From: Terriglobia bacterium
GTDB lineage: Bacteria > Acidobacteriota > UBA6911
Length of the DNA stretch: 64,000 bases
Assembly: GCA_020072565.1 (NCBI GenBank)
Contig: JAIQGI010000026.1
Location: 1-64,000 of the forward strand
Reading direction: 5' to 3'
Below the pieces are notes generated by a model, which saw only the letters and a list, made by a program, of their open reading frames with translations, was not told where the DNA came from and ran no database searches. Each line of letters opens with the position of its first letter. The stretch's first letter is position 1. Made by a program: the position numbers and the translations under genes. Shown piece by piece: positions 56,803-61,809 of this stretch.

Positions 56803-57411
56803 TCACCGGATCTCATGGAGCCGCAGGTCGAGGCGGCGGCAGAGTCGGGCGAACGTGAAGATGGGGAATCCAACGATATTGAAGTAACAGCCCTCGATCC
56901 GATCGATGAAGAGCGAAGCGTACCCCTGAATGGCATAGGCCCCCGCCTTATCCCGATACTCTCCTGTAGCCAGGTACCAATCGATGTCCGATCGTGTCAG
57001 GGGACGCATATGGACGCGAGAGCGGCTGGAGGCTGAACCGGAGCGCCCTAAGGCGTTGTCAATGAGGCAGATCCCCGTGAACACCTCGTGCCAGCGGCCG
57101 CCGAGACTTCGCAGCATGTCCCCGGCCTCCGCCGCCGAAGACGGCTTGCCCAGGATGTGATCCCTCAGGAGGACGATCGTGTCTGCTCCGATGATCAGGT
57201 CACTGCGGTGCCTGGGGGCAACTTCGCACGCCTTTAGACGGGCAGCGCGCACGACATAGGATGCGGCCGACTCTCCGCGTCTTCGTTCCGGCTCAGGGCC
57301 GGTACTGGGATCGATGAGGAGCCTGAATCCGAGTGCGGCCAGAAGTTCCCGCCGTCGCGGCGATGCGGATGCCAGTACCAGGCGAGAGGCCGTTGGTGTC
57401 AGTGTTGTCAT
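56803..57411 (-). CDS. maf: Maf-family nucleotide pyrophosphatase
   Basis: A 202-residue Maf/HAM1-fold enzyme that hydrolyses (d)NTPs such as dTTP/UTP or modified nucleotides. It has LVLASASPRRRELLAALGF at the N-terminus, GADTIVLL, and the conserved DKAGAYAIQGYASLFIDRIEGCYFNIVGFP. The YAIQGYA segment resembles the YhdE (dTTP/UTP) subfamily. Start ATG. It diverges from the UshA-like gene. Confidence 0.93.
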   Translation of the reverse strand: MTTLTPTASRLVLASASPRRRELLAALGFRLLIDPSTGPEPERRRGESAASYVVRAARLKACEVAPRHRSDLIIGADTIVLLRDHILGKPSSAAEAGDMLRSLGGRWHEVFTGICLIDNALGRSGSASSRSRVHMRPLTRSDIDWYLATGEYRDKAGAYAIQGYASLFIDRIEGCYFNIVGFPIFTFARLCRRLDLRLHEIR

Positions 57412-57558: not shown

Positions 57559-58575
57559 ATGAAAATAAATTGTATACCTCTTTTGTTTTTGTGCCTTCCT
57601 GTGGTTTTCCCTGCACCCGCGCCGCAATCTCCCGGCGCCACCCAGACGCCCGTGCCTACCGAATTTCCCGAGCAGCTGCTCAATGGCTCCGAGACCTTTA
57701 ATCTTGCCATCGACGTATACGGCGACCTGCGGGGGAATTTCGGCCCCTGTGGCTGACCCATCCACCCAGCAGGCGGTTTCGCCCGCAGGATGAGCTATTG
57801 GAATGCCTTTGCCAAGAAATACCCATCCCGGTCCCTGTTGCGCCTTGACGGCGGGTCCATCTTCAGCCGGGGGGTGGCCGCATCCTCCATCGTGAATCGG
57901 TATATGCTCGAAGGGACTTCGCGATCGAATCTGGATGCCATCAATGTGAGCTCGTGGGACATTCCCGTCTGGCAAGAGATGGGGGACATGGCGGCAGCAG
58001 GAATGATTTCCGGTGACTTTCTCAAGCTGCCGCTGGTTTCTGCCAATGTCACCACGAAGCTCCCGAATTTTCCTGCTATCCAGCCCTATATCATAAAGGA
58101 GCTGCAAGTCGATCCCAAGGCTGGAAAACCACTGCGGGTGGGGATTACCGGGCTGCTAATCGATCCGGAAGAGCGGATCTCGCGCACAGATTTTCAGGTC
58201 CAGAAACCGCAGGAGGCCGCGCGCAAGATTGTCGCCGAGTTGAGCGGCAAGGCAGACTACGTGATCATCCTCACCGAAATGGGGCTGGGTGAGGCGATCA
58301 GCCTCTCCCTGGTCGTGCCGGGAATCAATATGCTCGTCGTGGCCCACGATTACACTACGCCGATTGATGCCCAGCAGATCGGAGATACTCTTGTTCTCGG
58401 CCCGATCCACGAAGGACAGATGCTGTCCGAAGTCCGCTTGACCATAAAGTCCGGCGCGCAGAGAGTGGAGATCGAAAGCCATACCGTGCCGCTCAACGAG
58501 ACTGTTCCGGATGATCCTGCATTGGGCGAACTCATCCGCAAGGCCAAGGAAGAAGTGGACAAGGCGCAGAAGTGA
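57559..58575 (+). CDS. UshA-like 5'-nucleotidase-family protein, probable selenoprotein (in-frame TGA)
   Basis: One frame of 338 codons after the start is interrupted only by TGA at 57754-57756 (codon 66). Residues 1-20 are a signal peptide. The TGA falls in GPCG-TGA-PIHPAGGFARR, where relatives have PCGC...GGLARR, so it replaces the second conserved cysteine. The frame then continues 273 codons with family-like blocks (SANVTTK, YVIILTEMGLGEA, LVVAHDY, ADTLVLGP-like DTLVLGPIHEG). A hairpin suited to a bacterial SECIS follows at 57759-57792. No ribosome binding site precedes the internal ATG at 57790, which argues against a separate downstream gene. Several metallophosphatase metal-ligand histidines look substituted. 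The alternative is a nonsense-mutated pseudogene. Confidence 0.75.
57759..57792 (+). promoter_or_regulatory. Candidate bacterial SECIS hairpin
   Basis: The lower stem CATCC (57759-57763) / GGATG (57788-57792) starts 2 nt after the TGA. An internal loop separates it from the upper stem GGCG (57772-57775) / CGCC (57780-57783), with apical loop GTTT whose first base is G. There are 19 nt between the TGA and the loop, within the 16-37 nt range described for bacterial SECIS elements. An alternative register GCGG / CCGC (57773-57776 / 57783-57786) is possible. Confidence 0.55.
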
Positions 58576-58682
58576 CCATCCGGTATAGACGGATGCCGAG
58601 CGGACATCCCGCTTATCCAGATCCGATGTGACCGGTCGCAAGCAAAGACCCGGGAGTCGGAATGTCCCCTTCTCACAGAGTC

Positions 58683-58976
58683 ATGGCAATGGAATCAATC
58701 TCGACAACTCTGTTTTCTCTATATCGGGGCACGCCGTTTCAGGACGAGTGGCTGGTTGCCTGCCTGGACGGTGCCTGGCGGGGATTGCTGGGTGAGGGGG
58801 TCGCAAATTTCTGCCGGCCGCTGGCGGTGCGGGGTGAGGAGCTTGTGGTCGAAGTTCTCGACGCAGCCTGGCTGCCGACACTGGCAGGCATGAAGCAGGA
58901 ACTGCTGCAGCGGATACGTGCCGCTACCGGCAGCACGGTACAGCGGCTGTCATTCGTCGTGAAGGAAGCCTGTTAG
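58683..58976 (+). CDS. DUF721/DciA-like protein
   Basis: A 97-residue protein with the core LVACLDGAWRGLLGEGVANFCRPLAVRGEELVVEVLDAAWLPTLAGMKQELLQRI, matching the DUF721 pattern (W...vG..ia.h..p......L.V.v....w...L......l...). Family members include DciA, the helicase-loading factor of bacteria lacking DnaC, so replication initiation is a possible role. The start is uncertain between ATGs at 58662, 58683 and 58689; the first lies in a repeat-like sequence (CGGAATGTCCCCTT). Confidence 0.7.
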   Translation: MAMESISTTLFSLYRGTPFQDEWLVACLDGAWRGLLGEGVANFCRPLAVRGEELVVEVLDAAWLPTLAGMKQELLQRIRAATGSTVQRLSFVVKEAC

Positions 58977-59154: not shown

Positions 59155-61809
59155 ATGTTTGGGAATCATAGTTTCCGAAAGGTCGAATTCATCCTGGCAG
59201 TCACTCTGGCTCTGATCGGAACTTCCGCCAGTGCCTGGGCCCAATTCAGAGTGTTTGCCAAAGTCGTGGGGAATCCGACCGAAACGACGAGCCCGCTCAT
59301 TTTTGATGTCAACAACGACCAGACCGACAACATTTCTCCCAACATTATAATCAATCAGGACCAGCAACGCGGCTTTGTAGCTTATACGGGGTCGGGCGTG
59401 ATTGTGGAGTTTTCCCTGTCCACTGGGGAAATCCTGAACCGCATTCCGACCGGAGGCGCCCCGTGCTTCGCAACGCCCTTGCCAAACAATCGATTTGCCG
59501 TCGTATCGGTCTTCGAGAACGCGGCCAACTTCGTGCAGGGTAAGCGGATCTTTATCATCGACATGGGTGCGACCAGCGGCACAAGCTCCCTGGCGGCGAC
59601 CTATACGTTCGCCAACGCGCAGTTTGGTTTCGGCAGCATCCTTACACTTTCACCCGACCAGACTGTCGGCTACATATCCTCGGCCGGGACCGGCGAGGTA
59701 ATCAAGTTCAGCATGGCCGACGGGCGCGAATTAGGCAGGATCAGAGCAGGGATGAGAATCCCGGCTCAGATTACGATTTCACCCGATGGGAGTACGTTGC
59801 TGGTCGTAGATGTAGATCCGGGGACGCCGGAGCTGGATTTTTTCGACACTTCGACGTTTGCGAAGAAAGGCTCGCTCAAGAATCCGGATCCCGTACACGA
59901 TGTTGTCGCCTTCACCATATTCAACAAGGCAGTACTGGCGCCGGACGGCAAGACCGGGATCATAGCCAGCCGCGGCAGGAACAACGTCCAGTTTAGTGAA
60001 CTGGTTTTTCTCTTCGATGCTACCGACGGTGCCATTCTTAAAACCGGCAACACCGGTCCGGCACCGGGTTGGACAGGCCTCACTCCGGATGGGACCAAGT
60101 GGGTGATCATCAACATGTTCAGCGTCACGGTCATCCCGACGGACGATTTCGATCAGCTCCAGGAGTTTCAGGCAAACGCCGGCGAGCCCCTCGGCTCGGC
60201 CAACATGGTTTTCAGCTCAGACTCCAAGTTCGGCTTCTATGCCACTACCGGAGCCTCTGGCGTCATTCATGACCAGATTCTCCAAATCGACCTCGAAACC
60301 GGCTCTATCCTGGAGCAACTCCAGGTCGGCGATAGCCCCGATACTTTCGTTGATCAACCGTCCAGCATGGCCATTACCGCCGACGGCAAGATCCTCGTTG
60401 CCCTGGAATTCGTAAGCGACAATATCGACCTCATGAAACCGATCACGTTGGTGGCTGGCGGCAAATTTGTCAGCTCGCCCGATACCTTCACCGGCCTCAG
60501 CCTCCTCAACCTGTCGTCTCAGACGAACACGATCACCGTTTACGCGATGCAGGACTTCGGGGAACCGAATCAGGAGACCGGTGTCAACAACCCTGTTCTT
60601 ATCACCCTCGACCCCAATCAGCAGGTGTCCCTGACGGTGGCGGAGATCTTTAATTTCGACGACTCCAATGCTCCTAACGGTGAACGTACGGGTTGGCTGG
60701 CCATCTATAGTGAACAGCCCGGAGTCACCGGCTATGTCACGATCGGGAAAAAGGACCTGACTAGCCTGAACGGCCTCCCGCTGGACAGCAATCCCGACCG
60801 TCTCCACGATTGGATCCTTCCGGTGGTCAACCGCAACGGAGATGCTTCCATTTCGCTCAGTACCCTGAACGACACCTTTTACACCGCTTCCTACAGCGTG
60901 GCACGCATTGCACATGACGGGACGCTGATTGACAGCCAGCCCACCCAGGCAGCCTCTGCGAGCAACCGCGTGAACCAGGACCTGCCCGATCTCTTCCCCA
61001 GGGATCATCTGGATACCGAGGGGTATCTTCATATGACTGCGCCGGAGGGAGTGTTCTCCAACGAGCTTTACAACAACGGCACATCGGTTGAGATCCTCAA
61101 GGGAATCGATCGCTACAAGCACGTTGGCGTGACCCGGCTCGCCGCACCGCAATATGCAACCTGTCCCGGCTGGAAGACCATCCTGAATCTGATCAATGCG
61201 GCCGCAGCCGAGGCCGATGTGACTGTAACGTTCCACGGTGCGGACGCAACTGTGCTCTGGCAGTTTCAGAAGCATTTCAAGATCGGCGAACAGCTCAGGG
61301 ACGATGTCACCAACATATTCAACAACCCGCCCAGCGACATTAATAACCTGGTCGCCGACCCGGCGTTTCTGAACGCCGCCGGATGGGTGGAAGTCGAAAG
61401 CACTCAGGACCAGATCCTGGGTACGCTGACCTTCAACGCCAGCGACGACCATTTCGCCGCCAGTTACGAACTCTCCGCTACCCCTCTCAACCAGTTCATC
61501 TTCCCTATCGTCAGCCAGAATGACAGCTACCAGACCGGCGTCGCGTTGCTGAACAACAACGCGGATCCGGCAAATGTGACAGTGGAACTTTGGGGACCGG
61601 ATGGCAACATGATCGGGACCCCTGCCACCCTGACGCTGGCTCCCCATTCCCGAACGGCAGCCTACCTGGACAGCCTGTTCCCCAACATGGACCCACTTTT
61701 GATAGGTAATTTGCGGATTCGATCCGATAAGGCTGTATATGGCTTCGGAATCGTGAACGATTCGAATTTCATGTTTGTCATGGCTATGCCCCCCATTCCG
61801 TTTTTCTGA
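59155..61809 (+). CDS. Secreted beta-propeller protein with three C-terminal repeat modules
   Basis: An 884-residue exported protein. The signal peptide ends SASAWAQ (about 30). Residues 35-430 form a YncE-like seven-bladed propeller, with blades such as GVIVEFSLSTGEILNRIPTGG, FGSILTLSPDQTVGYISSAGTGEV and MAITADGKILVALEF. From about 435 onward three related beta-sandwich modules follow (starts near 435, 666 and 781), each with a GxxLLN...VTV...L.p......LF...GWL.I.S pattern. Such C-terminal modules are frequent in acidobacterial secreted proteins. The ligand is unknown. GGAG precedes the ATG. Confidence 0.82.
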   Translation: MFGNHSFRKVEFILAVTLALIGTSASAWAQFRVFAKVVGNPTETTSPLIFDVNNDQTDNISPNIIINQDQQRGFVAYTGSGVIVEFSLSTGEILNRIPTGGAPCFATPLPNNRFAVVSVFENAANFVQGKRIFIIDMGATSGTSSLAATYTFANAQFGFGSILTLSPDQTVGYISSAGTGEVIKFSMADGRELGRIRAGMRIPAQITISPDGSTLLVVDVDPGTPELDFFDTSTFAKKGSLKNPDPVHDVVAFTIFNKAVLAPDGKTGIIASRGRNNVQFSELVFLFDATDGAILKTGNTGPAPGWTGLTPDGTKWVIINMFSVTVIPTDDFDQLQEFQANAGEPLGSANMVFSSDSKFGFYATTGASGVIHDQILQIDLETGSILEQLQVGDSPDTFVDQPSSMAITADGKILVALEFVSDNIDLMKPITLVAGGKFVSSPDTFTGLSLLNLSSQTNTITVYAMQDFGEPNQETGVNNPVLITLDPNQQVSLTVAEIFNFDDSNAPNGERTGWLAIYSEQPGVTGYVTIGKKDLTSLNGLPLDSNPDRLHDWILPVVNRNGDASISLSTLNDTFYTASYSVARIAHDGTLIDSQPTQAASASNRVNQDLPDLFPRDHLDTEGYLHMTAPEGVFSNELYNNGTSVEILKGIDRYKHVGVTRLAAPQYATCPGWKTILNLINAAAAEADVTVTFHGADATVLWQFQKHFKIGEQLRDDVTNIFNNPPSDINNLVADPAFLNAAGWVEVESTQDQILGTLTFNASDDHFAASYELSATPLNQFIFPIVSQNDSYQTGVALLNNNADPANVTVELWGPDGNMIGTPATLTLAPHSRTAAYLDSLFPNMDPLLIGNLRIRSDKAVYGFGIVNDSNFMFVMAMPPIPFF

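Follow-up and report, generated by a model that had tools for sequence, protein, structure and literature searches.

The locus analysed here raises two linked questions: whether a TGA codon that interrupts a long frame is decoded as selenocysteine (Sec), and what such a residue would do in a protein with a hydrolase fold. In the window, i.e. the whole stretch of 64,000 nucleotides that was analysed, an ATG at 57559 opens a frame whose sole in-frame stop before its end is the TGA of codon 66, in the context GNFGPCG-U-PIHPAGGFARR; 272 sense codons follow, up to a terminal TGA at 58573-58575 (Table 1). The first-pass annotation had described a single frame broken only by this TGA, with a signal peptide upstream of it. 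Re-reading the translation bears this out: the hydrophobic N-terminus, MKINCIPLLFLCLPVVFPAPAP, looks by eye like a signal peptide, and the product is probably exported, judging from this segment. Genetic code table 11 alone yields just a 261-aa ORF starting at a later ATG. Genes of this kind are misread, as the stump that a table-11 caller returns lacks both the export signal and the Cys/Sec pair.

Table 1. Features of the selenoprotein locus and its flanks (positions in the window)
Feature	Coordinates	Strand	Remarks
UshA-like selenoprotein CDS	57559..58575	+	338 residues with Sec66, terminal TGA; basis: translation, homologues, AlphaFold model (pLDDT 88)
Probable signal peptide / export signal	57559..57624	+	Residues 1 to ~22; by-eye reading of the translation; model confidence low there
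Cys64-Gly65-Sec66 motif	57748..57756	+	Sec codon TGA 57754-57756; both positions Cys/Sec in 98/98 aligned sequences
Candidate bacterial SECIS hairpin	57759..57792	+	Apical loop GUUU 57776-57779; placed alike in class-mates L037 and L038; proof by covariation exists only for the hairpin that most relatives have further downstream
GGFARR motif	57772..57789	+	Common to true 5'-nucleotidases; its codons form the SECIS stem in most Sec relatives
Truncated 261-aa ORF	57790..58575	+	Product expected from a table-11 gene caller
maf-like gene, divergent upstream neighbour	56803..57411	-	Identified from its own sequence, not by family scan
dciA (PF05258), next downstream gene, conserved neighbour	58662..58976	+	
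Beta-propeller-like protein, DUF5719-type C-terminal part, probable export signal	59155..61809	+	Conserved downstream neighbour in G001, G075, G087, G158, G166 and G240

Residue 66 and the in-frame TGA

A Pfam scan of the window protein gave no match, and a single-protein search with it against the genome contigs found no relatives. A search of 396 genomes from the phylum, with retrieval of the matching loci, provided 97 homologues that align over residue 66, from 75 other genomes. At this position 59 have Sec (TGA) and 38 have Cys, and no other residue occurs; with the window protein included, the pair is present in every aligned sequence. A 26-row alignment shows G59, C64, C/U66, G72, G73, G99, N163 and G198 to be invariant, and homology runs unbroken across the TGA (the alignment with homologue L036, for example, spans residues 23-331). 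The 97-row tree requires a minimum of 12 exchanges between Sec and Cys, of which no fewer than eight are forced by well-supported branches. The first-pass annotation had proposed that the TGA replaces the second Cys of a PCGC motif, and had named unrelated residues at this position as evidence against this; the exclusive presence of Sec and Cys upholds the proposal. The gene thus unites an in-frame UGA, homology beyond it and Cys or Sec in its homologues, by which bacterial selenoproteins are recognised, and we are nearly certain that the UGA at 57754 is decoded as Sec and that the window gene encodes a selenoprotein. A changed genetic code was considered and rejected: TGA ends six of eight neighbouring genes, as well as the selenoprotein gene itself, and is therefore an ordinary stop here.

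SECIS hairpin, Sec machinery and nearest relatives

Most Sec relatives form a 9-bp SECIS stem from the codons of GG-L-A-R-R-x-G, with a loop of GGC, GTC or GGA in nearly all rows. Over the 42 Sec rows that share one register, the stem columns hold 91.8% standard pairs and their covariation score is 0.392, compared with 0.177 +/- 0.015 in shuffled alignments (none of 500 shuffles reaches it), while versions of the stem slid along the alignment are at most 49.5% paired, with covariation of at most 0.101. The same columns in 18 Cys rows are 66.7% paired, against 64.3% in shuffles. Moreover, the third, synonymous bases of the Ala codon and of the second Arg codon make Watson-Crick pairs, of four types, in 42 of 45 Sec rows and in 7 of 23 Cys rows (Fisher p = 1e-7). 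Covariation thus proves a family SECIS in most Sec relatives.

In the window gene the second Arg codon is AGG, so this distal stem cannot form. Another hairpin is present, closer to the TGA than the one in most relatives and placed as in two class-mates (Table 1). Its 5-bp lower stem (CAUCC/GGAUG), 2-bp GC/GC stem and 4-bp upper stem (GGCG/CGCC) carry a loop that begins with G 19 nt past the TGA; apart from the GC/GC stem, this is what the first-pass annotation had read. The folding check suggested there gave a divided answer: the hairpin is present, but its energy over 48 nt is ordinary (z = -0.89), and only the 28-nt core does better (z = -2.53). As the distal stem cannot form and the near hairpin lacks significance over 48 nt, the latter is a plausible SECIS only.

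The host genome has a tRNA-Sec with anticodon TCA (contig C25, 73.5 bits), and selA, selB and selD are each present in two copies over the cut-off, so that none of the four sel genes whose absence had been put forward as an argument against Sec is missing. One sel set is a selD-selA-selB cluster on C19 (L224, G000:C19:226500-236500) and the second is scattered (L226 on C3, L227 on C23 and L228 on C13); GC content is alike (0.58-0.61), and contamination is therefore not obvious. At E <= 1e-9, 237 of the 396 phylum genomes have a tRNA-Sec, including 47 of the 57 with a Sec form (Fisher p = 1e-4). A laxer scan with a cut-off of 47 bits gives matches of 47-52 bits in 7 of the remaining ten, which are uncertain because tRNA-Ser can score in the same range (two host tRNA-Ser reach 47-49.5 bits). 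A literature search for tRNA-Sec in Acidobacteria found nothing.

The nearest homologue (L010 / L223, G001:C585; 56% identity) provides mixed evidence. Over the part after the TGA, dN is 0.33 against a saturated dS of ~3, from which the frame after the TGA is seen to be under purifying selection. However, the G001 assembly lacks ~80 bases holding the CxU and is frameshifted there, with the matching N-terminus in another frame and the rest of the frame conserved; this may be real decay or an assembly fault. The TGA found in frame in G001 was rejected as a conserved Sec codon, the CxU segment being missing, although the genome does have a tRNA-Sec. Further lesions in close relatives, which the first-pass annotation had listed as evidence against Sec, are therefore seen in the nearest homologue in this one segment and not in the remainder of the gene.

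The only other genome of the same genus in the set (G004) lacks the gene, with both flanks in place: the block xseA-ispA-tlyA-nadK-maf ... dciA-beta-propeller is kept, at 58-81% protein identity to the window, and only ~120 bases separate maf from dciA at the empty site (L230, G004:C680, 6701-7678). Both flanking non-coding stretches are still window-like, and the gene body has left no trace. This genome gave no match to the window protein and no tRNA-Sec in the strict phylum scan. At least 8 to 12 Sec/Cys switches, together with a same-genus genome that has neither the gene nor a detectable tRNA-Sec, make the benefit of Sec directly testable.

A pseudogene or a sequencing error, with the TGA standing for a Cys codon and either the 261-aa ORF or nothing being made, would need a single point change from TGC or TGT. 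It would agree with the deletion and frameshift in G001 and with the ordinary 48-nt energy of the window hairpin. Yet TGA occupies the same codon in 59 homologues, the frame has no other lesion and is under purifying selection past the TGA, the Sec machinery is complete, and the SECIS covaries in relatives, which leaves this explanation very improbable.

Family placement and loss of the metal site

We found that the window gene belongs to the known family of UshA-like CxU selenoproteins, as a haem-free variant. The first-pass annotation had mentioned such a family, and it exists (PMC2398784; PMC13188914; NCBIfam NF041198): COG0737 UshA-like proteins with a CxU motif, occurring in both Sec and Cys versions as here, are known from the 2008 ocean (GOS) survey (PMC2398784), whose passages at hand give no architecture, SECIS or neighbourhood and do not state which branch it covered. 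The family also figures in reviews of 2022 and 2026 (PMC9312934, PMC13188914), in passages that name no function. The second UshA-like selenoprotein model, NF049981 (UshA_like_Sel_2), whose listed motif is CxxU (PMC13188914), gives the window protein 20.5 bits, below its curated cut-off of 140 bits.

The best model for the window protein is NF041198 (UshA_like_PCGU), with which it shares the UshA-type domain and the P-C-G-U motif (82.5 bits over residues 55-300). However, this model is that of a tetrahaem cytochrome fusion (519 positions, of which ~345-518 form the C-terminal multihaem part), whereas the window protein ends at residue 338 and has no CxxCH. It falls below the curated cut-off of 275 bits, as do the other haem-free forms tested (90-180 bits); among the members tested, only tetrahaem forms pass it (L036, 277.8; L063, 279.3; L011, 344.6). 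The current NCBI model thus leaves the haem-free forms out. Fusion to the tetrahaem cytochrome was counted in 37 Sec homologues (of 59) and 11 Cys homologues (of 38); the haem part is therefore present in 48 of 97 and absent from 49, a few of which may have been shortened by frame extraction, and it changed state at least 12 times on the tree. Added here to the first-pass annotation are the haem-free branch outside the NF041198 cut-off, the SECIS covariation, the conserved neighbourhood and the same-genus gene-loss site.

The AlphaFold model is of high confidence (pLDDT 88, pTM 0.86) and has the metallophosphatase fold of 5'-nucleotidases and UshA. Foldseek matches it to UshA (E 1e-19), SoxB (7e-19) and CD73, with E-values of 1e-19 to 1e-18 overall and TMq of 0.65-0.70, and a profile search of PDB sequences matches the same three. 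In genuine nucleotidases of the same bacterial family, the reference here, the di-metal ligand set covers eight positions (ND.H, GD, GNHE, H and GGH.H). The window protein keeps two of the eight, its GNHE pair being SW and its AGD aspartate S, and confirms the suspicion of the first-pass annotation that the hydrolase ligands are degraded. The family mode is one, and most members keep 0-2, whereas L023, a genuine nucleotidase paralogue in the host genome, retains all eight. In contrast to this loss, C64, residue 66 and GG72-73 are invariant, and Cys64 and Sec66 lie 8 and 10 residues past the vestigial first ligand, Asp56.

Compared with UshA and CD73, the window protein shares the N-terminal fold and the GG-x-ARR segment, but has lost most of its metal ligands, ends without a C-terminal domain, and has gained the CxU. 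To the N-terminal domain of SoxB (TIGR04486, PDB 2wdc/4uwq) it is similar in fold and in sequence, scoring 40.7 bits against the TIGR04486 cut-off of 550. SoxB keeps its di-metal hydrolase site and C-terminal domain; the window protein has neither. The family thus shows clearly how a hydrolase fold can lose its metal site and gain an invariant Cys/Sec pair.

Possible function and genomic neighbourhood

Granted that the gene encodes a selenoprotein, it is fairly probable that a dead phosphoesterase has been turned into a Cys/Sec redox protein that works outside the cytoplasm. SelB and tRNA-Sec would decode the UGA, aided by the hairpin just downstream, to give Cys64-Gly65-Sec66 within an N-terminal metallophosphatase fold of the 5'-nucleotidase/SoxB type, which the protein keeps although the C-terminal domain and the majority of the metal ligands are gone. 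Since the pair is invariant beside a vestigial ligand while most other ligands are lost, Cys64 and Sec66 probably form a reversible selenenyl-sulfide and serve as a centre of redox or thiol/selenol-exchange chemistry. In haem-bearing relatives the fused tetrahaem cytochrome would receive the electrons, and in the haem-free window form a separate partner would. That half of the members carry the tetrahaem fusion speaks for electron transfer, as far as domain architecture can indicate it.

Sec could also be inserted for another purpose, with Cys-Gly-Sec as a ligand of a soft metal or cofactor, or with the selenol capturing a sulfur or selenium carrier as in SoxB-SoxYZ. The pair does adjoin the vestigial metal site, and the closest folds include SoxB, also in its disulfide-linked SoxYZ complex 4uwq, while the TIGR04486 SoxB model gives a match of 40.7 bits. 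SoxY (PF13501), however, was not found in the host genome by a weak search that matched no control genome either, and the frequent Sec/Cys exchange and the tetrahaem fusion fit electron transfer better; we therefore consider a metal or carrier role unlikely, if still a serious contender. That the protein is a working phosphoesterase or nucleotidase in which Sec is incidental is hardly credible: the fold and the distant sequence similarity are those of nucleotidases, but six of the eight ligand positions are lost, including the GNHE pair and the AGD aspartate, no C-terminal substrate domain is present, and the host paralogue keeps all its ligands. A further proposal takes the haem-free branch as a separate family in which Cys-Gly-Sec would replace the metal site and work with the secreted beta-propeller neighbour on an extracellular substrate, which we regard as rather doubtful.

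This last proposal touches on the conserved neighbourhood. On the same strand downstream lie dciA and then the gene for the 884-aa beta-propeller protein, which looks secreted and has a DUF5719-type end. A propeller relative is also found downstream of the UshA-like gene in the six genomes listed in Table 1 (at a contig end in G240), and other class members have their best propeller match on a different contig. Because propeller relatives are abundant in the class, the link with the selenoprotein is only suggestive. No dedicated electron acceptor adjoins the selenoprotein gene. The propeller belongs to an expanded family, with 24 matches in the host genome and relatives in all 38 class genomes sampled.

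Among the homologues, one genome (G345) holds very close Cys and Sec paralogues (L048 and L071), of which the Cys copy keeps a SECIS-like hairpin and therefore looks like a recent Sec-to-Cys change. Another Sec form (L095, in G182) has the variant motif PCDU instead of PCGU.
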